Shown piece after piece: positions 1 through 38,549 of a stretch of DNA of 40,062 nt. Position numbers and translations under genes: made by a program. The DNA is taken from positions 1-40,062 of IMG/VR virus record IMGVR_UViG_3300046507_000315; one strand, written 5' to 3'. Below the pieces are notes generated by a model. It searched no databases, had not been told where the DNA came from, and saw nothing but the letters and a program-made list of their open reading frames with translations. Source of the DNA: a virus. Every line of letters starts with the position of its first letter. Positions within the stretch are counted from its first letter, which is position 1.

Positions 1-609
1 CGAGATAAAGAGACTAACCTGCCGTGCCCGATCTGCAATGGCGTCGAAGGGTGTGACCACACCGTGCCAGAACGTGCCCGCGCCGCATCAACTTCCGCCA
101 ATGTGGCGCAGGGTGCGGAGGCGGTGAGCGAGCGAATCGCGCGTGCTCTGCACTACCCGGCATGTTGGGACACCGCTGCATATCCGACGCTTGAAAGCGC
201 GGTATGGGAAGCAATTGCGTGCGCCAAACTCGGATGCAGCACATGCGAGCCAGCACAGACAGCGCTCGCGGATGCTGCGCGCGATGTGTTGGCAGAGCGT
301 CAGCGTCAGGTGACAGCGGAAGGCTGGACGCCTGAGCATGACGATGCGCACGACAGCGGCCAACTCGCGGGCGCGGCGTCGTGCTACGCGGCGCACGTCA
401 ATGGGCGGCAATGGGTGTTCTTCGCTGGCTGCGCAGACGACTACAAGTCCGAGCCGACGCCGGATTACTGGCCGTGGGATGAAAGCTGGTGGAAGCCGAC
501 CACGCCGCGCCGTGACCTCATCAAAGCCGCCGCGCTGATCCTCGCCGAAATCGAGCGCTTGGACCGCACCCTGACCGCAGATCAATCCGCAAGCGGAGAC
601 ACGAAGTGA
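1..609 (+). CDS. Phage protein with N-proximal zinc knuckle, 5' part beyond window edge
   Basis: The frame is open from the first base, so the start lies outside the window or, if the molecule is circular, at 39901. Residues encoded from base 19 carry a CPIC-x5-C-x-H pattern that looks like a zinc knuckle. The C-terminal half has the run ERQRQVTAEGWTPEHDD followed by an Ala-rich helix, a WPWDESWWKP motif and a closing LIKAAALILAEIERLDR helix. This pattern is familiar from short phage proteins of unknown function. It ends in a GTGA overlap with the XRE regulator gene, so the two are probably co-translated. The biochemical role is unknown. Confidence is high that it is coding and low for any function. 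Confidence 0.85.
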   Translation, partial: RDKETNLPCPICNGVEGCDHTVPERARAASTSANVAQGAEAVSERIARALHYPACWDTAAYPTLESAVWEAIACAKLGCSTCEPAQTALADAARDVLAERQRQVTAEGWTPEHDDAHDSGQLAGAASCYAAHVNGRQWVFFAGCADDYKSEPTPDYWPWDESWWKPTTPRRDLIKAAALILAEIERLDRTLTADQSASGDTK

Positions 610-896
610 GCGATACCGCCCAAGGCCCGCTCGGCTTCAGTGCCCGCCTGCGGGGCCTGCGCGAAGCCCGGTCGATAACACAGGCAGCACTCGCCCACGC
701 TATCGGCTCCAACCCCTCATCTGTCAGCCAGTGGGAGTTGGGCACTGCGTACCCGGCATTCTGGAATCTGGTCGAACTGACGCGCTACTTTGGCGTCGAC
801 ATGGACTGGTTCACCGGCATGCCTTACGTACGCAACGAGTTGCAGCAGCGCACAAAGGTCCGTGAAATCGTGTCTGCGTCGCAATCGCGCGCATAG
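606..896 (+). CDS. XRE-family helix-turn-helix transcriptional regulator
   Basis: This 96-residue protein starts at a GTG that overlaps the stop of the upstream gene (GTGA). Residues 11-70 form a Cro/C1-type HTH: an RLRGLREARSITQAALA helix pair, the recognition helix around SNPSSVSQWELG (35-46), and a YFGVDMDWFTGM tail typical of the family. There is no peptidase or dimerisation domain, so it is Cro-sized. It lies directly upstream of the partition/replication operon on the same strand. A role in controlling that operon or the early genes, possibly as the prophage-state repressor, is inferred from position only. Confidence 0.9.
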   Translation: MSDTAQGPLGFSARLRGLREARSITQAALAHAIGSNPSSVSQWELGTAYPAFWNLVELTRYFGVDMDWFTGMPYVRNELQQRTKVREIVSASQSRA

Positions 897-977
897 GCGC
901 ATACGTATATACAGCCGCCCATATGGCCCGCGCCCAGTGTGCGGCGCCGAACTGTTATCTGTCTTGCCTTTCCTCTA

Positions 978-1018
978 TACTCCAACCAGACCCGTTTCCC
1001 CCACAACGTGTTGGAGTA
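978..1018 (+). promoter_or_regulatory. Inverted repeat overlapping the par promoter (operator/parS candidate)
   Basis: The 9-bp arms TACTCCAAC (978-986) and GTTGGAGTA (1010-1018) are perfect inverted repeats separated by 23 nt. They end 8 nt before the ParA start codon. The left arm overlaps a -10-like TATACT hexamer (976-981); no good -35 hexamer was seen at the right spacing. In type Ib partition systems the ribbon-helix-helix partner binds a site upstream of parA to autoregulate it and to act as centromere. That role here is inference. Confidence 0.45.
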
Positions 1019-1025
1019 GAAAATC

Positions 1026-1673
1026 ATGCTTATTGCTGTTGCCACCCGTAAAGGCGGGGTCGGCAAGACCACGCTCGCCACCAACCTCGCCGCGCGTAGA
1101 GTTCGCGACACCACCAGCGTTAAATTTGTTGACGCTGACCGTGACGAGTACGGCTACATGTGGGGAATGTCCCGCAGGGAAAAGGGCGTCGAGCCCAACA
1201 TCATCCTGTCCAAGGCCACCGGCAATATCACCAGTGACCTTGTGGCCGACCGCGCATCCAACGATACGGTTATCGTGGACGTCGGCGGCAAGTACTCGCC
1301 TGAGATCGTCTATGCGGTGGGCGTGTGTGACGTGCTCGTGCTGCCGGTGCGGCCGGGTCAGTTCGATGCGTGGTCGCTGCAGGCGATGGCCAACATGATC
1401 AACGAGATGCGCGCGGCCGGTAGGAGTTTCCGCGTCGTCCCGGTGATGAGCGCGATCCCCGCGCAGGAGAACAGCACCCTGACGGCCAACATCTCGGCCG
1501 CGCTCAAGAACTTCCCCGACGAGTTTCCGGACCCCCTGAAGATACCTGAACGCGTCGCATACGTGAACGCCGCGATGACGGGCAAGGGCGTGTGCGAACT
1601 GCCGCGCAACCGCGACAACGCGCCCGCGATCGACGAGTTAGAAGTGCTCTACCGGAGGGTGTTCAATGTCTAA
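1026..1673 (+). CDS. parA: ParA-type partition ATPase
   Basis: This 215-residue protein starts with MLIAVATRKGGVGKTT, the deviant Walker A box (K9 signature lysine, K14-T15-T16). It then has an A'-type strand FVDADRDEYG (D36, D38) and a Walker B-like strand TVIVDVGGKY (D85). The short length without an N-terminal HTH matches type Ib plasmid ParA/ParF and the orphan ParAs of phage-plasmids. Such ATPases bind the nucleoid and position plasmid copies with a DNA-binding partner. Its stop overlaps the start of the RHH gene by 8 nt, and the replication gene follows, so the three genes form one operon for low-copy plasmid maintenance. Confidence 0.93.
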   Translation: MLIAVATRKGGVGKTTLATNLAARRVRDTTSVKFVDADRDEYGYMWGMSRREKGVEPNIILSKATGNITSDLVADRASNDTVIVDVGGKYSPEIVYAVGVCDVLVLPVRPGQFDAWSLQAMANMINEMRAAGRSFRVVPVMSAIPAQENSTLTANISAALKNFPDEFPDPLKIPERVAYVNAAMTGKGVCELPRNRDNAPAIDELEVLYRRVFNV

Positions 1674-1938
1674 GTCCGGATTCAGCGTCACCCCACCGAC
1701 GGCGCCCGTCGATCCGATCGAACGTATGGCGCGCGAAGCCGCCGGGACGCCCCTAGAAACGCGCAGGCCGCTCCCGGTGAAGGAGGCGACTAAAACCATG
1801 AGCCTGAACGTCCCCAAGTCGTTCTACGACGATCTGCGCAACTTCATGAAGCTCACCGACATCACCATGACCGATGTGCTGGTGGCCGGGGGCCGCAAGG
1901 AACTTGAACGGCTGAAGAAACACTATGGAATCGACTGA
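1666..1938 (+). CDS. Ribbon-helix-helix centromere-binding protein candidate (ParG/ParB-like)
   Basis: This 90-residue protein has a flexible, Pro-rich, basic N-terminus (1-40) and a C-terminal ribbon-helix-helix fold. The fold consists of a strand TMSLNVP (44-50), helix KSFYDDLRNFMKLTD and helix TMTDVLVAGGRKELERLKKHY. This is the architecture of ParG-like partners of short ParA ATPases: the RHH binds the centromere/operator and the N-terminal tail stimulates ATPase activity. It overlaps parA by 8 nt and the replication gene by 14 nt. The centromere role is inferred from fold and position. Confidence 0.8.
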   Translation: MSKSGFSVTPPTAPVDPIERMAREAAGTPLETRRPLPVKEATKTMSLNVPKSFYDDLRNFMKLTDITMTDVLVAGGRKELERLKKHYGID

Positions 1939-2509
1939 CGAAGACCCGCAGTACGACCTGTTCCGAGCCGAGACAACATGGTTCCACGTCTTCCACTCGA
2001 TGATATGGGGCGGCGACGTGGCAAAGATGGGGCCGTACGCGTTCACGGTGTACGCGACGATCAAGGCTTACACCAACTTCAAGAGCGGCAGCGCGCACCC
2101 GGGCATCCCCGAGATCATGGAAAAGTCCGGAATCTCTAAAAGTCAGGTGCTGCGCGCTCTCGAGAAACTGGAGGAATTTGGCTACATCACGCGCGACAGG
2201 AAAGGCCGCAGCAACCGCTACACGCTGCGCGAGAAGGTGGGCATTTCTGACACCCACGGCAGGCCCATCGCATCGGCCACGTGGGACTACGTACCGGACG
2301 GCGTGAGGGGTGCGGTGGCAGACCTGAAAAACGTATTGATGACCGGCGACTTTGCGGGCGCCAAGATCGTCACCATTGAAAATCTGACGGTGAACATCTT
2401 CCGTGACTCGGCTACGCAGAACAACATCAACGTCCAGAACCTTCTGGAAAACATGGACAAGCTGTCGCCCGAGACGCGCGCAATCCTGCTCAAGCGGCTG
2501 GCCGGCTAA
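1925..2509 (+). CDS. Winged-helix replication initiator candidate
   Basis: This protein has 194 residues. An N-terminal domain (18-55, TTWFHVFHSMIWGG...GPYAFTVYATIKAYTNF) leads into a winged HTH (about 58-103). The HTH includes HPGIPEIMEKSGISKSQVLRALE (recognition helix around SKSQVLRAL) and a wing RKGRSNRYTL. This is the style of helix-turn-helix replication proteins of plasmids and phages (DnaD/RepA-like). It is the last gene of the parA-RHH operon and is followed directly by iteron-like repeats and DnaA boxes, as plasmid initiators often are. A purely transcriptional regulator remains possible. The fold is clear; the initiator function is inferred from context. Confidence 0.72.
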   Translation: MESTDEDPQYDLFRAETTWFHVFHSMIWGGDVAKMGPYAFTVYATIKAYTNFKSGSAHPGIPEIMEKSGISKSQVLRALEKLEEFGYITRDRKGRSNRYTLREKVGISDTHGRPIASATWDYVPDGVRGAVADLKNVLMTGDFAGAKIVTIENLTVNIFRDSATQNNINVQNLLENMDKLSPETRAILLKRLAG

Positions 2510-9631: not shown

Positions 9632-12600
9632 TCACTCCCCCGGCATAGCAGCGTCAGGATCGCGCGCGAACGCAAGATTGGCCTTCAGCGACGGCAATTC
9701 GCGCCGCTGCACCCCGAACCCGAGCCCCGAATTCATCCCCAACATGTACTGCGCCATGCGGGTGCGAATCGCCGACGCCTCGCTGCGGATCGGCTGCGTC
9801 GGGTTGGCGGCGTTGAACTCCTGCAGCTTGCTGGTGGCTGAGCCGAGCGTGTCCTGATCGCCGGTCTGTGCCGCCTTGTAGAACTGGTCGGCGATGAGCC
9901 CCTTCTGATAGGACTGCCGGTCGCGCCGCGCTGAAGCGAACTGCTGCGCTTCCATCTCGGTGGCGCGCTCGCCGGAATTGAAGCCGACTGCCTGCCGTGC
10001 GATGTCCCACCCGGTCGGCTTGGCCATCGGCAGCGGGTTGCCCCTGCCGTCGGTGTAGCCATGCTGCGCGAGCTCGGCCGCCTTGAAATACGGCTTCAAC
10101 CCGCTCGGCAGCGCAGCCTCAATGCCCTTCGCCCAGTAGCCGTCGGAGATTTTGTCCATCGCCTGCGCGATGCCCACTGCCCCGTTCAGCGCCGGCCCCA
10201 TCAGCGCCATTGACTGATCCGACAGCCGGTCTTTCAGCAACTGGCGGCTGGCCAGAAAGTCACTGCCCGGCAGCAGGTTTTCGAGCCCGAAAGTGGACGA
10301 GTCGAAGTTCGCCGCGCGCGGCAGGCCGTGAGCGATGATGTCGCCCGCAGTATGTCCGAACGTCTTGGCTAGGAAGTTCTGCGCGTCGATCCGGATGTCG
10401 CGCGGGTCGTTGTTATCGTTCGTGAAAGTGTTGTACAGCCCCGCGAAGACGTTGGCGAACGGCAGCCCCATTGCGCCTGAAATCATCATCGTGGTGGCCA
10501 TCAGCCCGCCGAACTCCTTGCGGGCTTCCGACGCGCGCTGCAGCCCGGCAGGCGACTGGTCCTTGTTAAACATGCCGTCGTGCACCGTGCGCGCGATCTG
10601 CTGCATCGTCTGCAGGTTGTAGTTCATGAACGCGGTGAGCAGCGGCGTCACCTTGCCGGCGAACCCGTTCTTGCTGATCGCGCGAGCCGTGTTGGTCGGG
10701 TCGAAGTTGTCCATCGCGCGATCGACGGCTTGGATCGCATACTCGACGTTCGCGGCGTGCCCTTCCTGCGTGACGTTCTTCGATCCTTTTTCGGCGAGCC
10801 GGAACGCGGCGAGCCCGGTCGCGAGGCGGTTGGTCATTTCCGCGTACTGCGCGGTCATGGACGCCATGCGCTGCAAGTCCTGCTGGCGCTGCGTGCCACC
10901 AAGCGACATCATCTGAAGCTGGCGCGTCTGGCCAAGATTCAGGATGCCGCGGTCGTGAAGCTCCTGCACGAACGCTTCCTCAGTCGGCTTGAGCCCGAGC
11001 CCCTTGAACTGCATGCCCGTATCGAGCACGCCGCGCAGCCCGTCAGCCTGCCAGCCTTTTGCCAACGTGTTGGCCACGACTTTCAGCGACACGCCGGTGG
11101 CACCCGCGATTTCCTTGGCGCTGTTCACGAACCCGTAGCGCGAGCCCAGCAGCGGCAGCGCGCGGTGGAACGGTTGCGCGGTGGTGCGGATCAGGTAGGC
11201 TGGCGAGACTGCCAGATAGAACGCGTGGCCCAGCGAGTTGATCGTGTTGATCGTCGTGTTGTCCACCGACTTGTGGTCGTTCGCGTAGCGCTTGGTGATC
11301 TCGTCGAGCGTGTCGGTGGCGCGGATACGGCCCCCGGCGGTGCCTGTCCGGTTCAACTGGTCGACGCTCGCGCGCATCTGGTTGAGCGAATCATCGAAAG
11401 CGCGCTGCGTATAGATGCTTGCGGTATCGCGTACGCCGCCCATCGCCCGGCGCGAGTAGTTGCCGAGAAAGTCCGCATCGTAGCCAGGCACGCCTTGGCG
11501 ATTCATCTTCGCCGAGCGTGATGCTGTTTCCGGCAGGATCGAGAGCAGCGAGCGGGTCAGCGTCTCGCGCATCGCGTCGGCCGCCTGCTGCGGCAGCCCC
11601 GCGTTCTCTGTCGTCGAGTGCAGGCTGGCAAGCATCTGGCGCAGTGCCGGGGACGTGCCTGCCACGAACGACGGGTCGTTGTAGGCGAGCTTGCCCCACG
11701 CGTTAGAGTCCTTGACCATCGCCGTGCCGGCGGCGCCCACGAGCTTCTTGTGCAACGCTTCAGCCTGCTCCTGCGAGTTCACGCGGAAAAACACGTTGCC
11801 GTCGTTGCCGACGAGATTGCCCACCACCTTGTTGGTGCCCTTCAGCGCGTCCTGAATCCGCTGCTGCGCGAGCTCGTCCACGCCCTTGAGCGACGCCTTG
11901 ACGAAGTAATCGCCGCTGCGCCCGAGCGAAAAATATGGGTTCTGCGCCTGCGCGCGGTACATCTGCTCGAGCTCGTTCATGTGCCCACGTAGCATCGATC
12001 CTTCCGGCAGCTTGCGCGCGTCGGCAAACATGGCGTTTAGTCGTGCGTCGAGCGCCTGCGTCGCGCCGTCTGCGAACGTGTCGGGCTTCGTATTGCGGGC
12101 CGCCTCCAATGTCTTGTCCATGATGTCGAGCCGCCCGGCATGCGCGCGGGCCATCTCGTGCGCCGGCAGCGCGCCCTGCACTCGCGACTCCTGCGCGGCG
12201 CGCGCGGCGTCATCCGGCGCCATGCGCGTGAGGTCAGCCGCGAGCTTGGTGTACGAGCCCGAAGCAATTTCCATCAGGTTGCGCGCGATCGTCGAGGTGG
12301 TGTTTACCAGCAGCTTGTGGTTGAGCAACTGGCCATCCACGATCGCCTTGGCCGCCTCCGGATTGGAGCGCTGAAGCTGTGTGAACTGGCGGTGGATGTC
12401 GTCCACGTACGCCTTATTGTGCGCAGGGATGTCGCGCCCGGCCTTCACGTTGTCCGCATAGTTCATGCGGTAATCGAAGCCCCCGCGCGATGCTTCGCCG
12501 CCGATGGTGGCCATCTGGCGGGACAGTTCCCGTTGCTGGTCGCCCGGCAGCTTGTTGAGCATCTTCTGCACGCCGTCGGCGAATGCGCTTACCGGCTTCG

Positions 12601-15600
12601 TGATGAACATGCTGGCGATGCGCTTGCTCTCGTGAGCCTGCTGGTAGGCGTCGAGCCCCTTGGCAAAACCGGACTCCACCATCTCTGGCAGCGCGCGGAT
12701 ACGATCAGCCAGATATTGCACGGTCTTCCACGACGCGAGCGCGCGGTACGCCGCCGGTTCAAGCGCCGCAATGTTGAGCTTTTCGCCCACCTTGTCGGCG
12801 AGCCCGCCCAGCTTGCTGTACTGATCGTCCGTCACCTTCGCGGCATCAGCCGGCGACTTGCGGAACTCCAAGTCCTTGAGCGAGCCTTCCGGCAGCGGGA
12901 ACCCTACCGGCTCGCCCTGCTGCCGGAAAAAGCGATCGTTCACGGCCAGCGCGCGCTCCAGAAAATCGGGTTTGGCTGTCGCCGGCATCCCAAGCAGCTT
13001 GCGCACAGCGCTAACCACGCGCGCCCACAGTGTCGGCTTGTCCTTGCCCACCAGCGACGCGTCTTTGAGCGTCTTCTGGAATTCCGGGTTGCTGTTCAAC
13101 TCCGCGATGAACTCGTGCGGGCTCGTGAAACCGTACGCCCATGCGCGGGGGTCTGAACTGCCGAACGCCTTCGCCGCCTCGTTTGCGATGGCGACGATCT
13201 CGCGATAGCCCTGCAAGAGTTTCGCTTCCGCCTGAGTCTTCGGCTTACCGCCACTGCCTTCAATCGCTGCAGCCGCATTGATCCGGTCGGCGGTCGCCGC
13301 GTGGACGGCTTCGTGCAACACGTTGTGCTCGTTTTCGCCGCCGGGGTAGATGTCGACGCGGTTATCGATCGTGTCGTAGTTGCCGGTGACGCCTTCGCGG
13401 CGCGCGAGTGGCTTCTGCGCGATGGTCGTGCCGCTATCAATTGCGGCGAGCCGCGTGGCCAGTGCTCGCGCTTCAGGCGTCGCGCCCGTCTGCGCGATAT
13501 GGTTAAGCGTGTCGACGAGCTTGTCCGAGCGCTGCACCTGCGCCACCAGACGCGGGTTCTCGCCATACACGTCAGACGACGCCACGTTGCGATATGACTC
13601 TGTGTACGGCTTCGTCGCGGCTTCGCGGGCGATGTCGCTGATCGACTGCGCAAATGCCTCGCTGTTGGTCTTGCCGCTCACGACGTCGGCCAACTGGTTG
13701 CGGAAACCTTGCAGGTCTTCGTAGCGCTCCTGTTCGAGCGGCGTCAGTTTCTCGCCGTCGCGAATCCGCTGATTGAAGCTCGCGAGCGACGCGTCCACCA
13801 TGTCGGCCGTGTCCTGCGCGTGCGAGCGCGGGCTTTGGGTGAGGTTTTCCGGGAGCGCGGCATCATGGCCCGGCGCGCTGGTCTGTGCCGGCGCCATGTT
13901 CCCTTCCGGCAGTGCGGCGTTCGTCGCGGCGGGCGCTTGCGTCTCCACCGATGCCGGGATGTTCTCGGGCAACGTGTCGGCCTGTGTGGGGGCTTCGGGC
14001 AAGGCACGGGCAGCAGCCAGATTGTTCTGTTGTTCAGCGATGTCTGCCGCTTTCTGCGCAGCGCGTGCAGCAATCTCACCACGGTTCTGGTGATCCGCCA
14101 GTTGCTGTTGCGCCTCTACCAGTGACTCACTTAGCGCATTGTGGCTATCCACTTGCGACTGGTGGACCCGTTGTGCTTCGGCGAGCGCAGTCTGCGCCGC
14201 TTCGAGTCGGGTGTTGGCCTTAGCCAAGCGCGCGCCCCCGAACGGTGCCGAGGCTGAAGCCTGCAACTGGGCGCCGTCCGCTTCCTGCTGGGCTTTGAAA
14301 GCCGCATCTGCAGCGGCCTGTCGCCCTGCGGCTGCGGTGTCGACCTGCTTCTGCAAACTATCCGCCGTACCTTGCAAAGCCTTGCCTAGCGTATCTTCCT
14401 GCGGCTCCTGCGGAGTCTCACCTTTCCACTTGTCGAGCAACGCCTGCATGCGATCGCGCGTGACGCCCTGCCCCAGCTTCTTGTCCTGCAACGCGTTGGT
14501 GAGCGCGTCGATCTGTTCCTGATGCGTGGCCAACTGCTCGAGCCCGAGCGCGTCCAGCTTCTTCTGGAAAGGCGTCATTGACTGCTGCTTGGTCGAGAAG
14601 TCGTTCGCCTGATTCACAGCATCGATATCGGCCTTGATCGCGTCCACCGGCTTGGCCGCGCCGGCGAGCGCTGGCGCGGCTTCCGGGGAAATAGTTGCGT
14701 TTCCGGACGGCTCTGCCGGCGGTGTAACTATTCCATTTTCCGGGGCCGGCTGCGCAGTGGGCTGATTACGCAGATCGTAAAGCTCGCCCATCGATAGCTC
14801 GCGCTCGATGCCGGTATCTGCTGCGCTCACACGTACGCCAGACGGCTCGCCGAGCGCAGCCTTGGCATCGGCGCGGCGCTTGGCCTGCTGCGACTTCGTG
14901 AGGCTGTCGTTGTCCGCGCCGGTGATCTTGTTGATCATGTCCTGCGCTGAGATGCCGGGCTCCGGACGCATCGCGGCCTGAAGCATGGACTGCACGGCGC
15001 TCGCGCGCGTGGTCGTGTATTCCTGCGCAAGCTGTTCCGGAGTCTTCGGGGCGTTCTGTGCATTCAGGAACTCCTGCACCACGCTCACGTCTTTCGTCGA
15101 CGAGCCATCCGGGAAGGTGTACGAGTCGCCTGCGCGCTGCACCAGCCCGTTGCTGTTCGCGATCATCTGATCGATCTGCGGCGCCGTCGGGTTGTTCGGC
15201 AGTTGCAGCGGGGCCGCGGCGGGCGCAGGTTCCACCGGCTGCGCGCCCAGCCCGAGCAGTTTTGCGCGTGCTGCGGCCTGTTCGTTTTCTGGCAAGCCGT
15301 TGATGTAGTCGTCAACTTCCTGATGACTGCGCGCCACGGTCCCGTCGGGGAACACAATGTTGGGTGACGGGTTGTTGGTGAGCAGCGGTGTGGCCGCGGC
15401 GGGCGTCTCAGCAACCGGCGTCTCAGCAACCGGCGCCTGCACCGCACCCGGATCGAACAGGCCCGTATCCACCTTCAGCGGCAGCCCGTGATCGATCGCG
15501 GTCTTTGCGTTCTGGATGAACGCCAACTGCGCTTCAGATGTCGGCAGCGCCTGTGCATACTGATCCGCGAGTTGCTGGCGCAGCGCAGGCTCTGTCTTTT

Positions 15601-16519
15601 CGCTGGCGAGCGTCGCCGTACGTGCGGAAGCTGAGCGCACCTGCAGCGCGCGTGAAGCGAGCCCGAGCGGCGTCAGCACGGCACTTAGCGCGAGCGCCTG
15701 TGGGATCGACGCGACAGCCGCCGCCAGCGGGTCTTGGTCATCGATACCGTACGCATTGTTCACGCCCGCGGTCACGCTCGACTGCGCGGCCATGAGGGTG
15801 GTGTTCTCAACCGCGCCCGTTGCACCCGCCTGCAGCCCGGCTTTCAGCCAGCCACCACTGCCCGTCAACTGGCCGAGCACCTGATTGGCGAGCGGTACCG
15901 CTTCCGTACCGACAGCTTTGCCGAATGCGTCGCCGACCGCGCCGAGTACCTTGCCGCCCACCATGCCCGCCCCAACCTGCGTGGCGAATGTCGTTGCCGC
16001 ATTCAGGCGCGACGCGGATTGTGCAGCTTCTGGCGAGAGCCCCTTGGCCTGCGCGGCTTCCAGCGTCTGCTGCCCCGCCTGCCCCGCCGCGAGCGCGCCG
16101 ATGCCCGCCGCCCCGATGGCTGCAGAAACCGCAGTGGGTACCGCCACTGGGAGTGCTGCCGCCGCGAGCATGCCGCCGCCCACCGCGCCTGCGATGGTGG
16201 GCAACTGCTCGGCGCCAGACGCCAGAAAATTAGTGACGCCGCCGTGCTGGTCTGGCTGCATGGTGAGCCATGACTGCTTGCCCATCCCCTCACCAAAGCC
16301 GCGCACCGCTGCGCCTGCGTTATCCGCGCCCGCAAATTGCAGCGCCTGCCCGGCCATCGTTGGCAGATCAGCCAGGGCGCCGCGCGCAAGGCCGGTGCCG
16401 ACTTCAGCGATGTTGCCGCGCGCGGGGGCAGGCGGCCGGATACCTGTTACGTCGCCATCCGTGGAGGGCGCAGGCGACTGGATGTTGGTGACTTCCCCGG
16501 TAGCGTCGTTAGTTGCCAT
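9632..16519 (-). CDS. Giant virion/ejection protein with HEXXH metalloprotease motif (2295 aa)
   Basis: This is one uninterrupted frame of 2295 codons. An N-terminal Ala/Gly-rich hydrophobic stretch (about 107-147) could insert in membrane. Residues roughly 640-880 are Gln/Ala-rich and predicted coiled coil. A zincin-type motif H1069-E-A-V-H1073 (NVLHEAVHAAT) lies at 1066-1076 after a YDTIDNRVDIYPGG strand. A long helical region follows, with moderately hydrophobic patches near the C-terminus (e.g. GGLMATTMMISGAMGLPF). The size, position among tail genes and mixed enzyme/linker make-up match the very large internal virion proteins of podoviruses and the polyvalent proteins of mobile elements. 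These are packed in the particle and ejected with DNA. A role in envelope passage or in disarming host proteins on entry is inference. Confidence 0.85.
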   Translation of the reverse strand: MATNDATGEVTNIQSPAPSTDGDVTGIRPPAPARGNIAEVGTGLARGALADLPTMAGQALQFAGADNAGAAVRGFGEGMGKQSWLTMQPDQHGGVTNFLASGAEQLPTIAGAVGGGMLAAAALPVAVPTAVSAAIGAAGIGALAAGQAGQQTLEAAQAKGLSPEAAQSASRLNAATTFATQVGAGMVGGKVLGAVGDAFGKAVGTEAVPLANQVLGQLTGSGGWLKAGLQAGATGAVENTTLMAAQSSVTAGVNNAYGIDDQDPLAAAVASIPQALALSAVLTPLGLASRALQVRSASARTATLASEKTEPALRQQLADQYAQALPTSEAQLAFIQNAKTAIDHGLPLKVDTGLFDPGAVQAPVAETPVAETPAAATPLLTNNPSPNIVFPDGTVARSHQEVDDYINGLPENEQAAARAKLLGLGAQPVEPAPAAAPLQLPNNPTAPQIDQMIANSNGLVQRAGDSYTFPDGSSTKDVSVVQEFLNAQNAPKTPEQLAQEYTTTRASAVQSMLQAAMRPEPGISAQDMINKITGADNDSLTKSQQAKRRADAKAALGEPSGVRVSAADTGIERELSMGELYDLRNQPTAQPAPENGIVTPPAEPSGNATISPEAAPALAGAAKPVDAIKADIDAVNQANDFSTKQQSMTPFQKKLDALGLEQLATHQEQIDALTNALQDKKLGQGVTRDRMQALLDKWKGETPQEPQEDTLGKALQGTADSLQKQVDTAAAGRQAAADAAFKAQQEADGAQLQASASAPFGGARLAKANTRLEAAQTALAEAQRVHQSQVDSHNALSESLVEAQQQLADHQNRGEIAARAAQKAADIAEQQNNLAAARALPEAPTQADTLPENIPASVETQAPAATNAALPEGNMAPAQTSAPGHDAALPENLTQSPRSHAQDTADMVDASLASFNQRIRDGEKLTPLEQERYEDLQGFRNQLADVVSGKTNSEAFAQSISDIAREAATKPYTESYRNVASSDVYGENPRLVAQVQRSDKLVDTLNHIAQTGATPEARALATRLAAIDSGTTIAQKPLARREGVTGNYDTIDNRVDIYPGGENEHNVLHEAVHAATADRINAAAAIEGSGGKPKTQAEAKLLQGYREIVAIANEAAKAFGSSDPRAWAYGFTSPHEFIAELNSNPEFQKTLKDASLVGKDKPTLWARVVSAVRKLLGMPATAKPDFLERALAVNDRFFRQQGEPVGFPLPEGSLKDLEFRKSPADAAKVTDDQYSKLGGLADKVGEKLNIAALEPAAYRALASWKTVQYLADRIRALPEMVESGFAKGLDAYQQAHESKRIASMFITKPVSAFADGVQKMLNKLPGDQQRELSRQMATIGGEASRGGFDYRMNYADNVKAGRDIPAHNKAYVDDIHRQFTQLQRSNPEAAKAIVDGQLLNHKLLVNTTSTIARNLMEIASGSYTKLAADLTRMAPDDAARAAQESRVQGALPAHEMARAHAGRLDIMDKTLEAARNTKPDTFADGATQALDARLNAMFADARKLPEGSMLRGHMNELEQMYRAQAQNPYFSLGRSGDYFVKASLKGVDELAQQRIQDALKGTNKVVGNLVGNDGNVFFRVNSQEQAEALHKKLVGAAGTAMVKDSNAWGKLAYNDPSFVAGTSPALRQMLASLHSTTENAGLPQQAADAMRETLTRSLLSILPETASRSAKMNRQGVPGYDADFLGNYSRRAMGGVRDTASIYTQRAFDDSLNQMRASVDQLNRTGTAGGRIRATDTLDEITKRYANDHKSVDNTTINTINSLGHAFYLAVSPAYLIRTTAQPFHRALPLLGSRYGFVNSAKEIAGATGVSLKVVANTLAKGWQADGLRGVLDTGMQFKGLGLKPTEEAFVQELHDRGILNLGQTRQLQMMSLGGTQRQQDLQRMASMTAQYAEMTNRLATGLAAFRLAEKGSKNVTQEGHAANVEYAIQAVDRAMDNFDPTNTARAISKNGFAGKVTPLLTAFMNYNLQTMQQIARTVHDGMFNKDQSPAGLQRASEARKEFGGLMATTMMISGAMGLPFANVFAGLYNTFTNDNNDPRDIRIDAQNFLAKTFGHTAGDIIAHGLPRAANFDSSTFGLENLLPGSDFLASRQLLKDRLSDQSMALMGPALNGAVGIAQAMDKISDGYWAKGIEAALPSGLKPYFKAAELAQHGYTDGRGNPLPMAKPTGWDIARQAVGFNSGERATEMEAQQFASARRDRQSYQKGLIADQFYKAAQTGDQDTLGSATSKLQEFNAANPTQPIRSEASAIRTRMAQYMLGMNSGLGFGVQRRELPSLKANLAFARDPDAAMPGE

Positions 16520-34289: not shown

Positions 34290-34317
34290 GACATCAGGTC
34301 GTGGCAACCAGTTGTCG
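34290..34317 (+). repeat. 28-nt intergenic element, copy 1
   Basis: This is the most diverged copy: GACATCAGGT, a changed centre, then GCAACCAGTTGTC. It ends 5 nt before the -35-like hexamer of the promoter candidate for the 205-aa gene. Confidence 0.6.
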
Positions 34318-34321
34318 CGGT

Positions 34322-34350
34322 TTGCGTTTAGTTGCATATGTGAGTAATAT
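34322..34350 (+). promoter_or_regulatory. Possible sigma70 promoter for the first early gene
   Basis: TTGCGT (34322-34327), a 17-nt spacer and TAATAT (34345-34350). The hexamers are only 3/6 and 4/6 matches, so this is a tentative call supported by position. Confidence 0.35.
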
Positions 34351-34441
34351 TCGTTCTGCAGTAACGCAACACGTTGTAAAGAAAGCCCTGCGAATAGTTC
34401 GCCCGGCAAATCCCATTTGATTACTTGTTAGGAGATTCACC

Positions 34442-35059
34442 ATGACGCAAACGAACGCTCAAGCCGTTGCTACGAAAGGCATTGAAGTCACTGCATTCCA
34501 TAAGGACGTGTATGCAGCGATCAACACTGCGCGCACGGCAGTAGACAAGGCGCAAGGTACGATGCAGCAAAAGCTGGCTAACTTGCTGCGCAGCAAGTAC
34601 GCCGCAGTCATGCCGACGTTTGAACAGTTCCGCGCAGATCGCGCCGCGCTCAAAGAGCTTGCCAAGCAAAAGGGTCTGGCCGACGACCAATGGCTGCGCA
34701 AGCCGTATAACGCGGCTGTGCATCTGCTGTATGGCGCATTGCCTGAAGCGCAGACCGCTGCAGCCATTGCCAAGCGCAAGTTGCGCGAAGCGAATGAGGC
34801 GGCCGGTATCACGACCGTTAAAGATGGAAAGAAAGTCGCAGCTAAGCCTGCTGTGTCCGGTGCCAAGCCAGGCGCCATCAAGGGCAACACTACGCAACGT
34901 GTTGCCGATGAATCGGAAACTATCGAGCAATACATTGCTCGCGTCGGATTGTGGAAAGTGATGGACGCATGCGCGCGGTTGCTCAATGCCGATCAATCGA
35001 CGTCAGAAGCGGCAAAGGTACTGCAACCGATTGTGAAGAAATACGCCAAAGCCGCTTAA
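34442..35059 (+). CDS. Early protein of unknown function (205 aa)
   Basis: This is the first gene of the early block, preceded by TTAGGAGA and followed by a strong terminator, so it is probably monocistronic and well expressed. It is largely helical and basic: VYAAINTARTAVDKAQGTMQQKLANLLRSKYAAVMPTFEQFRADRAALKELA, then ADDQWLRKPYNAAVHLLYGALPEAQTAAAIAKRKLREANEAAG. A flexible Lys/Ala linker leads to a C-terminal helix pair (ETIEQYIARVGLWKVMDACARLLNADQSTSEAAKVLQPIVKKYAKAA). A DNA-binding or nucleoid-type role would fit the composition, but no family is recognised. Codon use is less GC-rich than in the late genes. Confidence 0.82.
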   Translation: MTQTNAQAVATKGIEVTAFHKDVYAAINTARTAVDKAQGTMQQKLANLLRSKYAAVMPTFEQFRADRAALKELAKQKGLADDQWLRKPYNAAVHLLYGALPEAQTAAAIAKRKLREANEAAGITTVKDGKKVAAKPAVSGAKPGAIKGNTTQRVADESETIEQYIARVGLWKVMDACARLLNADQSTSEAAKVLQPIVKKYAKAA

Positions 35060-35085
35060 CGTTTCTTTCTCAACGTATTGCACAG

Positions 35086-35111
35086 AGCCCCGCATGCGCG
35101 GGGCTTTTCTT
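35086..35111 (+). terminator. Rho-independent terminator of the 205-aa gene
   Basis: The perfect 8-bp stem AGCCCCGC/GCGGGGCT with loop ATGC is followed by a TTTTCTT tract. It lies 26 nt after the stop codon. Confidence 0.93.
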
Positions 35112-35284
35112 CGCCTACTTACTGTGAGGTATGCCGTGCTAGTTCGCAAAACGTCCCTTATCGCTCGCGCAGCAATGGCGCTCCCATTCCGTTTCTATGC
35201 GGTCGAATCCGCGCGAGTGCAGTATGACTGCGCAACGTACGTTCGAATATTTCTAGTCTGGTAATCCTACGCAACGTGTTTTTT
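35112..35284 (+). ncRNA. Possible small RNA between two terminators
   Basis: No convincing frame exists here, yet the stretch lies between two intrinsic terminators, so something transcribed should end at the second. It can fold: GCTCGCG (35163-35169) pairs with CGCGAGT (35212-35218) around a GCGG-TCGAAT-CCGC hairpin, and GCAGT-ATG-ACTGC follows. The TCGAATCC loop is tRNA-like, but the closed unit is only about 56 nt, with no D arm or anticodon arm. No clear promoter was found. Transcription is inferred. Confidence 0.35.
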
Positions 35285-35315
35285 AAGAGCCGCCATTGTG
35301 CGGCTCTTTTTGTTT
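35285..35315 (+). terminator. Rho-independent terminator
   Basis: The perfect 9-bp stem AAGAGCCGC/GCGGCTCTT (35285-35293 with 35300-35308) has loop CATTGT and a TTTTTGTTT tract. The nearest upstream gene already has its own terminator. Confidence 0.9.
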
Positions 35316-35416
35316 CTATTTCCGGCTGAATAGTTTCGCTCAATGCAACTATAGTTGTAAGGTTGAATAGTTGCACGGTTTCCGGAAATAGAAACGCGTT
35401 TTCCAGAATAGAAACG
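35312..35416. repeat. Nested inverted and direct repeats
   Basis: GTTTCTATTTCCGG (35312-35325) is matched by CCGGAAATAGAAAC (35382-35395), a perfect 14-bp inverted repeat. A degenerate third copy, TTTTCCAGAATAGAAACG, follows at 35399-35416. Inside the loop lies the 12-bp palindrome CAACTATAGTTG (35346-35357) and an ATAGTTGC octamer. No gene lies here; the structure looks like a protein-binding array. Confidence 0.7.
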
Positions 35417-35605
35417 AGTCCCTACAGATAGCAGGGTTTCTGTGCTTAAACTATTCAGGGGTATGCAGTCAGGCACGACAAGGGTTTGCGCGATGTTAGT
35501 CCACGTAAAAAGCAGAACACTAAGCAATAGGTTTGCGCTATGGCGTTTGCTTACATTTGTACAACGTATTGTGGGCGCGGGTTCCAGCCGGTTAGTTGTA
35601 TCCAG

Positions 35606-35837
35606 TTTCAGCGAAAAAGCAATAAAACAGAAAAAGCAGAAAAAATTAGGGTGTCGAATTGTCTCCAGAAAAAAACGCAAGTCAGTAGTCAGTGCGGGCC
35701 AAACCGACCTAAGCTCTCAACACCGATTGTTACTATTCCATGAATTGACTACTGACTTGCGTTTTTTTCTCTCTTAGCCCCACATACCCTACTGATACCT
35801 GCTTTATTGCTTTTTTGGCGCGCAACTATCGCTGAAA
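35606..35837. repeat. Long nested inverted repeat with a perfect 25-bp core
   Basis: The core arms at 35668-35692 and 35746-35770 are perfect 25-bp inverted repeats (AGAAAAAAACGCAAG... and its complement) around a 53-nt centre. Outward, AAAAAGCAATAAA (35614-35626) pairs with TTTATTGCTTTTT (35803-35815), and TTTCAGCG (35606-35613) with CGCTGAAA (35830-35837). GCGCTATG (35535-35542) and CATAGCGC (35854-35861) may extend it. The T7 tracts at each arm could terminate transcription in both directions. An origin or packaging role is speculative. Confidence 0.8.
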
Positions 35838-35916
35838 GCCAATACCAGTAAGGCATAGCGCCCGCACTGACTAGCAGCGATTCTGCTTTTTGCCCGGTGC
35901 AACTATCCGCATTTAA

Positions 35917-35944
35917 GACTTCTGGTTGCCGCAACCAATTGTCC
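35917..35944 (+). repeat. 28-nt intergenic element, copy 2
   Basis: GACTTCTGGTTGCCGCAACC followed by AATTGTCC. GGTTG and CAACC form a 5-bp inverted repeat around CCG. No gene starts within 350 nt downstream. Confidence 0.75.
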
Positions 35945-36129
35945 AAGCCTTACTGGATAAGGGCGCCGCGCCAATCATTACAAAAGCATTATGCTTATTA
36001 CAGAGCTTACAAGCGCGCTTATTTTTGGGGTGCATGTTTCTATCGGCACGGCATGTAACGATAGTTGCGCGTTTTCAGGGGCGCCAAGTGCGTTGCCCCG
36101 CGCACTACGCACCCATACACTGACTTACT

Positions 36130-36158
36130 ACTGACTACTGCATAGCGCGGTAGTCAGT
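36130..36158. promoter_or_regulatory. Operator-like palindrome 1
   Basis: ACTGACTA (36130-36137), 13 nt, TAGTCAGT (36151-36158). A half-site ACTGACT lies just upstream at 36119-36125. It shares exact arm and spacer length with the site at 36222-36250. Confidence 0.65.
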
Positions 36159-36221
36159 GCCGTTTTTCGCAGTGATTGTTTCTATCCGCTCTCGATAGTT
36201 ACATAATCAGTGGGCCAAATG

Positions 36222-36250
36222 ACTGACTAATGCAACTGGCAGTAGTCAGT
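36222..36250. promoter_or_regulatory. Operator-like palindrome 2
   Basis: ACTGACTA (36222-36229), 13 nt, TAGTCAGT (36243-36250). It starts 92 nt after palindrome 1 and ends 61 nt before the zinc-ribbon protein gene, where a regulator would control its promoter. Confidence 0.65.
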
Positions 36251-36311
36251 AGATGTGCAATAATGGCTCGGCACTAAACATTTTCAACCTTACAGCGAGG
36301 CAAACTTCAAA

Positions 36312-37103
36312 ATGGGAAAAGCGGCTGACTTGGCAGGCACACGCTATGGCTCACTAACGGCGATCGAGCGCAACGGCACGAACGCGTCAGGCAAGGCGCA
36401 ATGGCTCTGCCTGTGTGACTGCGGCGCGCAGGTGTCAGCGCTCGCGCAGAATCTGAAAGCGGGCAACACGCGTTCATGCGGCACACATGGGCAAGGCGCT
36501 GGCCCCGCGGCTAACCAGCAGCCGGAGCGTTACCGGATAGTCGCGATTGACGGCCCAAAGCTCGGCATGCAGCCAAGCGCGTATGGCTTCTGTGAGGTGT
36601 TCGACGCCGAGTCAAAGGAACTGCTATTCAGGAACGAGCCGCTAAGCCGCCTTGAAACTGCAGGTGAGCCGAGCCCGAACGGCGCGCGCGGCATGACATG
36701 GCTCCAGCAGCAAACACTGATCGAGCCAAAGCGCAACATGACGTGGAGGCAATGGCTTATTGCGGCGCGCGTAACAGTGGACCATCGAACGGTGTCGGAC
36801 GCCGCCGCCGTTGAGGCCGCATGGGAGTCGAGCGCGGGGCGCGCGCTGCGCGATAAGCAATCAGGCGAACAGCCGTCATTCTTGCCCACTATTCAGCAGA
36901 TACCGGACGTCACGCCGGCTCAAAAATACGCCGTTGATGTATTTCTTTCCGACGACACGGACGGCGCCGAGCACATGCGGCGTTACCCACTGTCAGACGA
37001 GGCGCAGCGTGAGCTAATGCTGAAAGCCGCGCGCAAGGGCGGACAGGCGGCGCTCGATGTTGCGATAGCCACAGCAAAACGCGAACTTCAGAGCGGCCAG
37101 TAA
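36312..37103 (+). CDS. Zinc-ribbon DNA-binding protein (263 aa)
   Basis: Residues 8-60 read LAGTRYGSLTAIERNGTNASGKAQWLCLCDCGAQVSALAQNLKAGNTRSCGTHG. This is the G-x-RYG-x-LT...W-x-C-x-CDCG...L-x-x-G-x-T-x-SCG pattern of small zinc-ribbon modules often found in phage regulators and beside HNH/AP2 domains. The middle (70-150) is unrecognised. The C-terminal part is helical (MTWRQWLIAARVTVDHRTVSDAAAVEAAWESSAGRAL, then TPAQKYAVDVFLSD). An AGCGAGG stretch precedes the ATG. Two palindromes with identical geometry lie just upstream and may be its own or another regulator's sites. A transcription-control role is inferred. Confidence 0.78.
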   Translation: MGKAADLAGTRYGSLTAIERNGTNASGKAQWLCLCDCGAQVSALAQNLKAGNTRSCGTHGQGAGPAANQQPERYRIVAIDGPKLGMQPSAYGFCEVFDAESKELLFRNEPLSRLETAGEPSPNGARGMTWLQQQTLIEPKRNMTWRQWLIAARVTVDHRTVSDAAAVEAAWESSAGRALRDKQSGEQPSFLPTIQQIPDVTPAQKYAVDVFLSDDTDGAEHMRRYPLSDEAQRELMLKAARKGGQAALDVAIATAKRELQSGQ

Positions 37104-37192
37104 GATTGACCGATCAACGCGTTGTCAGGATAATAGAAACAGATGTAAGAAATTTGATTGAAACGGCGGGGCGGCAGACAACTGGTTACACA

Positions 37193-37220
37193 GACATCTG
37201 GTTGCCCCAACCAACTTTCC
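37193..37220 (+). repeat. 28-nt intergenic element, copy 3
   Basis: GACATCTGGTTGCCCCAACC followed by AACTTTCC. It ends 11 nt before the ATG at 37232. A partial direct repeat of its first half (GACAACTGGTTACACA, about 37177-37192) abuts it. Confidence 0.72.
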
Positions 37221-37231
37221 AAAGGACTGCG

Positions 37232-37513
37232 ATGATCACCGCCACATTCGAACAAGCTGCAACGTTCGGCAAGAAAGTCGCAGTCGAACAGCCTGACCAC
37301 TCGCTAGGAGAAACCCTGATGACTGAACTGGATGAAGTAGCAGCCGCGATGCTGCCTGCATACCTGCACTGGATCGAAGGCACGCCGCGCGGCAACTGCA
37401 TGGCAGCGTCCCGTGAATATGTGCGCCAGCAGATGAGCGACGAAGGCGAGACGCTGCGCGATAACGTGGCTTACTCACTGTTCCGCATGGCCTGCCCGAT
37501 GGTGAACGTATGA
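37232..37513 (+). CDS. Small early protein with two possible starts (93 or 64 aa)
   Basis: Two in-frame ATGs both have good ribosome-binding sites: 37232 (AAAGGA) gives 93 residues, and 37319 (CTAGGAGA) gives 64. The block before the second start, CACTCGCTAGGAGAAACCC, is nearly the same as the one before the gene at 37817, so the shorter form is likely made. The shared C-terminal part reads TELDEVAAAMLPAYLHWIEGTPRGNCMAASREYVRQQMSDEGETLRDNVAYSLFRMACPMVNV, a compact helical protein that I do not recognise. It overlaps the next gene by ATGA. Confidence 0.68.
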   Translation: MITATFEQAATFGKKVAVEQPDHSLGETLMTELDEVAAAMLPAYLHWIEGTPRGNCMAASREYVRQQMSDEGETLRDNVAYSLFRMACPMVNV

Positions 37514-37761
37514 GCGTATTCGCAGACACGCACGCCACGATCAAACAACTGGCGGCTGAAGGCGGCATGAACGAGCGGGCCGCCGAGATTCTGGTAACGG
37601 CGATCAATACCGGCATGGGCGATAACGTGGCAACAAAAAGCGACATCGCCCTGGTGCGCGCCGACATGGCCGGGATCGAAACGCGACTTAGCAATAAGCT
37701 CTACGCGGTGGGCTTGGCGATGGTCGGGCTCATCGTAACGATCCAGCACATCTGGAAGTAA
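37510..37761 (+). CDS. Small membrane protein with coiled-coil (DUF1640-like)
   Basis: In this 83-residue protein a helical N-terminal half (THATIKQLAAEGGMNERAAEILVTAINTGM) leads to VATKSDIALVRADMAGIETRLSNKL, then a single TM segment YAVGLAMVGLIVTIQHIW at the end. The VATKxD...L...M..LE.RL pattern followed by a C-terminal TM is common in small coiled-coil membrane proteins (DUF1640-type). It begins in an ATGA overlap. The role in the phage is unknown. Confidence 0.75.
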   Translation: MSVFADTHATIKQLAAEGGMNERAAEILVTAINTGMGDNVATKSDIALVRADMAGIETRLSNKLYAVGLAMVGLIVTIQHIWK

Positions 37762-37764
37762 CGC

Positions 37765-37792
37765 GACTTCTGGTTGGCGCAACCAACTGTCT
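37765..37792 (+). repeat. 28-nt intergenic element, copy 4
   Basis: GACTTCTGGTTGGCGCAACC followed by AACTGTCT. It lies immediately after the membrane-protein stop and only 24 nt before the next ATG, so here it must be in or next to the mRNA leader. Confidence 0.75.
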
Positions 37793-37816
37793 CACCACTT
37801 GTTAGGAGAAACCCCG

Positions 37817-38101
37817 ATGAAAAGCATGAAGCCTCAGGCCAACGTGCCCAACCTCGACGCCGAGGAAGGCGATGCACTCATGGCTTTTTGGGCGCGGCAT
37901 CAGCGCGGCCGACACGCCAAGGTGCTGTTTCCCGAGGGCGGCCGTGGCACGGTCAGCGCGACCGCCGCTCTGGCCAACTACGCCAGCAACAAAGCGACGG
38001 CCATTAGCTGCCGCGAGCGCGGTGACATTCTGGCCGCGCAGTTGTATGAGGGTATCGCTGACCGTATCTATGCCAGCCTGCCCGACTTCGCACGCTGGTA
38101 A
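37817..38101 (+). CDS. Small early protein of unknown function (94 aa)
   Basis: The ATG at 37817 is chosen because CACTTGTTAGGAGAAACCCC lies directly upstream. The longer frame from 37799 starts inside that site. The sequence DAEEGDALMAFWARHQRGRHAKVLFPEG, then TVSATAALANYASNKATAISCRERGDILAAQLYEGIADRIYASLPDFARW looks like a compact helical protein. The closing YE-x-x-x-D-x-IY-x-x-LP-x-x-ARW pattern is one I associate with small phage proteins. Function is unknown. Confidence 0.75.
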   Translation: MKSMKPQANVPNLDAEEGDALMAFWARHQRGRHAKVLFPEGGRGTVSATAALANYASNKATAISCRERGDILAAQLYEGIADRIYASLPDFARW

Positions 38102-38114
38102 CGCAATCGGGGTG

Positions 38115-38219
38115 ATGATGCCGATGCGTACGCACGGTCGGGCTGAACCGAAGCCGACGCCGCCGAGCACGCTGTGGGCTCGCGCCCCGCTCGCTGTGCC
38201 GCAGGCCGAAGCCGCCTAA
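38115..38219 (+). CDS. Possible very small protein (34 aa)
   Basis: A short frame starts at an ATG 14 nt after the preceding stop and ends at the edge of the fifth 28-nt element. It is Pro/Arg/Ala-rich (RAEPKPTPPSTLWARAPLAVPQAEAA). The ribosome-binding site is weak (CGGGG, 3 nt away). It may be a real leader-type peptide or a chance frame. Confidence 0.3.
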   Translation: MMPMRTHGRAEPKPTPPSTLWARAPLAVPQAEAA

Positions 38220-38246
38220 ACTTCTGGTTGCAACAACCAACTGTCC
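38219..38246 (+). repeat. 28-nt intergenic element, copy 5
   Basis: AACTTCTGGTTGCAACAACC followed by AACTGTCC. It is followed at once by the AT-rich hairpin at 38247-38278 and then by the gene at 38307. Confidence 0.75.
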
Positions 38247-38306: not shown

Positions 38307-38549
38307 ATGTTTAAAGTTAATATTGCGAAGTGGCTGGCGAAAGAAATCCACTCGACCGAGCTCGAACTGCTGCGCGCCGAAGATGATCTGGCAAGCGCCA
38401 AGCTGCGCGTCGCTGCACTGCAGGAGCGTGTCGTGCGTTTGAAGGGCAAGGCAGTGGCGCCGGCCGCGCCCGTTGTCTCGCCGGCAGTGGCGGCGTACGA
38501 CCGTGCTCGCATGGCCTTTAACCAGTCGTTTCAGGCGGTGACGGAATGA
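38307..38549 (+). CDS. Small coiled-coil protein (80 aa)
   Basis: The ATG at 38307 has GTGAGG six nt upstream; in-frame ATGs at 38295 and 38301 are possible but placed worse. An N-terminal coiled coil (KWLAKEIHSTELELLRAEDDLASAKLRVAALQERVVRLKG) is followed by an Ala/Pro linker and a short helix (AAYDRARMAFNQSFQAV). It overlaps the next gene by ATGA. No family is recognised; a small oligomer is likely. Confidence 0.75.
   Translation: MFKVNIAKWLAKEIHSTELELLRAEDDLASAKLRVAALQERVVRLKGKAVAPAAPVVSPAVAAYDRARMAFNQSFQAVTE

Follow-up and report, generated by a model that had tools for sequence, protein, structure and literature searches.

The virus record IMGVR_UViG_3300046507_000315, analyzed here over its full 40,062 bases (the window), carries five copies of a short intergenic repeat near its right end, raising the question of what a dispersed element of this kind does among the early genes of a phage. 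A first-pass annotation of this DNA had described the repeat as a 28-nucleotide (nt) unit, and had proposed that it could serve as a set of operators, as a control site specific to the phage or as a protein-bound RNA hairpin. The comparative analysis reported here suggests that the five copies are probably operators, dispersed over the early block, at which a DNA-binding protein of the phage acts. This protein is most likely the 205-amino-acid (aa) product of the gene at 34442-35059, and it would repress the early block by acting as a roadblock to transcription elongation.

Comparison with related phages revealed that the unit is not 28 nt long, but a two-fold-symmetric dyad of 27 base pairs (bp), GACA-NN-TGGTYG-NNN-CRACCA-NN-TGTC. 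All five copies are present where they had been reported (Table 1) and all are intergenic. They are confined to the early block, occurring only between 34.29 and 38.25 kilobases (kb) of the 40-kb record (~20 kb of the genome is unseen), and their distance to the start codon does vary (12 nt for copy 3, 25 nt for copy 4 and ~368 nt for copy 2). The plus orientation assigned to every copy has no meaning beyond small deviations, since the site is symmetric, and the 'TGTCC-like end' of the earlier description corresponds to the outer arm on the right-hand side of the palindrome, the counterpart of GAC(A) on the left. Scored over 20 positions against the dyad consensus, the five copies present 1, 1, 1, 1 and 2 mismatches, with copy 1 being a normal member under the consensus of the relatives (1 mismatch). 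The runner-up in the whole window has 6 mismatches and overlaps copy 3, and in 100 dinucleotide shuffles the best match per shuffle had 4-7. Across six genomes, half-sites of 12 bp were seen ~53 times against ~2.7 expected, and nearly all of them were paired. Neither a lack of conservation in relatives nor equal copies at random positions, the two outcomes that the first-pass annotation had named as speaking against the element, was found.

The window has no end repeats and is probably a fragment. Its late genes are of podovirus type and lie on the minus strand (terminase, portal/adaptor, capsid and a giant protein of 2295 aa), and its early block occupies the plus strand from ~34.3 kb onward. 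A capsid-based search identified relatives in viral metagenomes, and the full-length ones measure ~61-65 kb, indicating that roughly 20 kb of the genome of the window is missing from the record. No near DNA match to the window was found among deposited phages. The nearest of these by portal and capsid is Pseudomonas phage Rollin (39-46% protein identity), in which a de novo dyad scan detected no such dyad set.

Ten relatives presented a readable set of sites, each with 4-11 dyads. Because shuffled controls of G+C-rich genomes yield clusters too, making the de novo dyad scan noisy there, a site set was accepted only if it preserved the GACA/TGTC frame and withstood reversed-pattern controls, which returned zero matches in the records carrying sites. 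The outer GACA/TGTC arms are constant in these sets and the inner arm differs, with TGGTYG, TGGTA, TGGTG, CGGAG, CCGG, CCGA and GCCGCG as the forms observed. The inner arm of the window, with a spacer of 3, recurs in the relatives G001, G005, G012 and G015, and its half-sites are found in G006 with a spacer of 4 and, once, of 5. Elsewhere the inner arm is TGGTA (G002), AACGGAG (G018), TTCCGG (G010), AAAGCCGCG (G011), TGGTG (L159) or AACCGA (G016, a weaker set). The phages thus share the frame, but each phage or phage group has an inner arm of its own. G037, alone among the full-length relatives read here, lacks the candidate protein, and the GACA dyads are missing from it as well. A different perfect dyad, GTTGATAGCTATCAAC, is present in this relative (L128-L131) in 8-9 copies, mostly at 52-62 kb.

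Of the 21 protein families common to TGGTYG-type and other-type phages, the family of the 34442-35059 product is the only one that tracks site type, with an identity of 0.43 within types against 0.35 across them; the difference for the next family is 0.03. The correlation between protein and site similarity is ~0 at either terminus of the protein and reaches its maximum at residues 74-94 (r 0.84, Mantel p 2e-4). When controlled for the rest of the protein, the helix has a partial r of 0.73, and the rest controlled for the helix one of -0.05, indicating that the remainder of the protein adds nothing once the helix is considered. AlphaFold2 places two helices here, at residues 60-76 and 83-97, with a short turn between them and a predicted local distance difference test (pLDDT) score of ~90, and a model of the isolated domain repeats this arrangement. 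In these models, the co-varying residues open the second helix of a helix-turn-helix-like pair. The helix start reads QWVRKPY or QWLRKPY with TGGTYG sites (eight members), QYYRKAY with TGGTA, MIRKHV with TGGTG and EWLRKCY with CGGAG. Shared ancestry alone does not explain this correspondence, because tree sisters differ in both site and helix: the window and G002 are sisters on the terminase and structural-protein trees (97-99% support), and yet their sites and helices both differ, while G015 groups across site types with G011 (terminase tree) or with G011 and G016. Since the spelling of the site changes together with one short helix of the 205-aa protein, this protein is probably the binder, and the comparison of sequences suggests that it is probably a DNA-binding switch controlling the early genes.

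The placement of the sites was analyzed for 78 sites in eleven genomes, using random positions drawn from the same blocks as reference. A start codon with a ribosome-binding site lies at most 60 nt away from 47 of the 78 sites, against 22% at random (p 4e-13), the usual order being stop codon, site, ribosome-binding site and ATG. Strong sigma70-type promoter matches are found 40-90 nt upstream of 12 of the 78 sites (2.0 expected), and none of the 78 overlaps such a match (2.1 expected). The site of the regulator's own gene differs in that the promoter match tends to come after it. This distribution makes it unlikely that the sites are classical operators, at which the protein would cover promoters and block initiation in the style of lambda CI. 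Such operators would fit symmetric dimer sites and the own-gene site, which in several relatives is immediately followed by a predicted -35 element, but the strong predicted promoters are upstream of the sites rather than under them, and many sites occupy operon-internal gaps of ~25-50 bp without a promoter match.

Activation is harder still to reconcile with these positions. A protein recruiting RNA polymerase from upstream to early or middle promoters would be well placed at the regulator gene, where the predicted start point lies ~54 bp downstream of the site centre, a usual activator distance. For most other sites, however, the activated start would land at or past the start codon, because the ATG often follows the site by 15-35 nt, and we consider this explanation improbable. 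We prefer the roadblock reading because the sites occupy gaps between genes and follow promoters, placements most of which are fitted poorly by an activator or by a promoter-covering repressor.

The ties of the early-block sites to start codons also bear on a centromere-like (parS-like), replication or genome-organizing function in partition or packaging, to which we assign the same low probability as to activation. A ParA-type ATPase is encoded in the window and in three relatives (G010, G016 and G018), some members may live as plasmids, and site 2 lies within a repeat-rich non-coding stretch; yet no ParA match was found in the full-length G002, G006, G011, G012 and G015, which keep the sites.

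To distinguish a DNA site from a transcript hairpin, covariation between the arms was assessed in 40 TGGTYG-type sites oriented to the early block. The pairs at position 11 are C.A in 15 sites, T.A in 15, T.G in 6 and C.G in 3, with 18 Watson-Crick pairs against 21.2 expected under independence, and the two-base spacers also pair below expectation (6 and 7 against 10.8 and 12.7). A hairpin in the transcript would avoid C.A and show C.G together with T.A. The independence of the two halves hence disfavors it and, together with half-sites that occur almost only in pairs, fits a protein dimer on DNA. A hairpin in early mRNA leaders, protein-bound or processed by a nuclease, would be favored by the location of most sites in the predicted transcribed leader, just ahead of the ribosome-binding site, and by inner arms able to form a 6-bp stem with a 3-nt loop. 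It is nonetheless very unlikely, given the many C.A mismatches on the transcript strand, the lack of compensatory changes, an Rfam search without match and an own-gene site that in several relatives precedes the predicted promoter. Among the readings offered by the first-pass annotation, the RNA hairpin is therefore not supported, its arms being without compensatory change, and that of an operator or phage-specific control site is supported by the symmetric half-sites, their conservation in relatives, their placement at early genes and a co-varying DNA-binding candidate.

The least credible of the explanations weighed is that the sites are early promoters of the phage N4 kind, small hairpins in the DNA that are recognized by an RNA polymerase carried in the virion. 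The 6-bp stem and 3-nt centre just before early genes are in keeping with it, as is a giant protein in the structural cassette. Against this, the centre varies in length and sequence, the arms are not kept paired, and no solved relative of the giant protein and no sequence match to a solved polymerase were found. A PF00940 search for a virion single-subunit RNA polymerase gave no match, but it gave none in the control either. The giant protein (window 9632-16519) closes the structural cassette, and its C-terminus is weakly related to DarB-like and unknown giant phage proteins.

In the mechanism that we propose, the candidate protein would bind the dyad as a dimer. Its variable helix would read the inner arms, which lie in successive major grooves at a distance of about one turn of the DNA, and GACA would be read by a conserved part of the protein. 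Bound in the gaps between early genes, downstream of promoters, the protein would stop elongating RNA polymerase and turn down the early block, and the site upstream of its own gene would provide autoregulation. In temperate members, the same circuit could yield superinfection immunity. The system is also retained in members for which the searches found neither an integrase nor ParA, indicating that its core role is probably the timing or shut-off of early genes, and the presence of ParA, a TrfA-type protein or an integrase in some members makes a role in lysogeny or immunity plausible.

Several observations weigh against this interpretation. The correlation between protein and site stems from few independent changes, since the fifteen proteins cover only eight site types and eight of the proteins share one type, and its 14-residue peak is the best of many windows tried. 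The site of G004 rests on one copy and that of L159 on two. The candidate protein matches no known DNA-binding family in solved-structure, Pfam and PHROG searches, and structure searches give weak fold matches, with no clear relative among the folds listed. The spacer length shifts by 1-3 bp between genomes, and sometimes within them, which is unusual for a rigid dimer. The promoters are throughout sigma70-type consensus matches, not mapped ones, and a roadblock has a less obvious use at those sites that follow a terminator or fall within a gene. With these points in view, the comparisons argue that the operator set is real, conserved and specific to the phage and that its candidate regulator is a strong one, for which we infer binding, dimerization and repression.

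No relative of the candidate protein was found in the genome contigs, deposited phages or plasmids searched. In viral contigs, a search with the full alignment of 11 members found no usable stretch, and searches with single proteins and subsets added a few members. The only recurrent match to a DNA-binding fold was the core-binding domain of Cre (Z 4-5, root-mean-square deviation (rmsd) ~3 over 60-63 residues), a value within the chance range for helical proteins. The resemblance involves residues 35-103 (Z ~4.8, rmsd 3.0, 63 residues; Z 4.5 with the domain model) and, like the Cre domain on loxP half-sites, the candidate would act on inverted half-sites. Unlike Cre and loxP, the 205-aa protein has no catalytic domain and the dyads have no 8-bp crossover spacer; a Pfam integrase match was found neither for this protein nor for its relatives.

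The best analogy for the dyad set is the stoperator system of Cluster A mycobacteriophages such as L5 and TipsytheTRex, in which many copies lie in short intergenic spaces, mostly off promoters, the motif varies together with the repressor from one related phage to another, and a binding site adjoins the repressor gene (PMC6550527, PMC9283540). Stoperators are 13-14 bp long, asymmetric and oriented with transcription, number 20-30 per genome and have as their binder a monomer that contains two DNA-binding domains. Repressor binding at stoperators halts transcription elongation, and the dyads would act likewise under the roadblock reading. The dyads resemble them in their dispersal in short intergenic gaps, close to start codons and with none centred on a strong promoter match, and in a motif that shifts between relatives along with the candidate protein. 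They differ in being symmetric, 27-30 bp long, present in 4-11 copies per genome and associated with an orphan protein, and the dyad set is not a member of the stoperator system. A profile of the candidate protein searched against solved structures gave no repressor match, an absence that is weak evidence on homology to L5 Rep. Dispersed operators for a single repressor are also known from phage P1 (c1 operators), and the c repressor of phiC31 binds conserved inverted repeats (CIRs) at multiple dispersed sites of the early region. As with the CIRs, the dyads are inverted repeats recurring in the early region, and the co-variation points to one protein; hosts, lengths and sequences differ from those of both systems.

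Table 1. Sites, predicted promoters and genes in the early block of the window.
Feature	Coordinates	Strand	Remarks
Dyad site 1, GACATCAGGTCGTGGCAACCAGTTGTC	34290..34316		125 bp upstream of candidate regulator gene; most relatives also have a site before this gene
Weak predicted promoter of regulator gene	34320..34350	+	Score 9.4, below cut-off for strong matches; just downstream of site 1; consensus match only
Candidate site-binding protein, 205 aa	34442..35059	+	Just downstream of site 1; predicted helical DNA-binding domain and C-terminal helices
Codons of residues 83-97, predicted recognition helix	34688..34732	+	Helix start QWLRKPY carries the specificity signal
Dyad site 2, GACTTCTGGTTGCCGCAACCAATTGTC	35917..35943		Within 1.25-kb non-coding stretch
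Early gene, 263-aa protein	36312..37103	+	N-terminal CDCG zinc-type domain; downstream of site 2
Predicted sigma70-type promoter, TTGACC-17-GATAAT	37104..37134	+	Consensus match only; site 3 downstream of expected start point
Extra left half-site, GACAACTGGTTA	37177..37188	+	Starts 16 bp upstream of site 3; right arm degenerate; overlapping partial match
Dyad site 3, GACATCTGGTTGCCCCAACCAACTTTC	37193..37219		ATG 12 nt further on
Small early gene	37232..37513	+	Directly after site 3
Small early gene	37510..37761	+	Directly before site 4
Dyad site 4, GACTTCTGGTTGGCGCAACCAACTGTC	37765..37791		Between stop codon and following ribosome-binding site
Small early gene	37817..38101	+	Directly after site 4
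Dyad site 5, AACTTCTGGTTGCAACAACCAACTGTC	38219..38245		
Small early gene	38307..38549	+	After site 5

Other features of the early block were noted alongside the sites. The non-coding stretch of 1.25 kb (window 35060-36312) contains long inverted repeats, including a perfect 25-nt pair (35667-35691 and 35746-35770), and is perhaps a replication origin or control region. A recurrent leader, ACYTGYTAGGAG, surrounds the ribosome-binding site at window ~37797-37809; it was observed on the early-block strand only, occurs in G000, G006, G010, G011 and G015, and often lies within 25 nt after a dyad. Two further proteins were considered as binders and set aside: the identity of the CDCG zinc protein does not track site type (difference -0.01), and the 115-aa helix-turn-helix (HTH) protein of G006 (L112 220-567) is present in only five genomes. 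The gene for the latter lies upstream of a primase-helicase gene in five relatives and, in G018, directly after the dyad at position 2906, and may therefore belong to the regulon.

The maintenance functions of these phages vary. A row of genes at window 606-2509 encodes a Cro/CI-type HTH protein (606-896), the ParA-type ATPase (1026-1673), a 90-aa open reading frame and a winged-helix protein (1925-2509), and looks like a plasmid-maintenance module, which suggests a phage-plasmid. G010 carries a TrfA-type replication initiator (L147 5755-6558) in addition to ParA, and G011 has a tyrosine integrase instead (L118 10587-11816). The maintenance module hence seems to be swapped between close relatives.

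From a repeat that carried no annotation, these results derive a pair of regulator and site that is open to experiment. The protein family is an orphan one, and the lineage is known here mainly from metagenomes. A bolder proposal, which we put forward tentatively and hold to be rather doubtful, is that the proteins form an unrecorded regulator family that uses a fold similar to the DNA-gripping domain of Cre-type recombinases, without the catalytic part, to silence early operons by roadblock at symmetric sites, and that the phage-specific inner arms constitute a natural series of helix/site pairs setting immunity or incompatibility groups. The fifteen relatives offer a ready set of natural helix and site variants for studying protein-DNA specificity directly, and likewise how groups of phage control or immunity evolve. 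Should the roadblock reading hold, stoperator-like control would reach beyond the actinobacteriophages.

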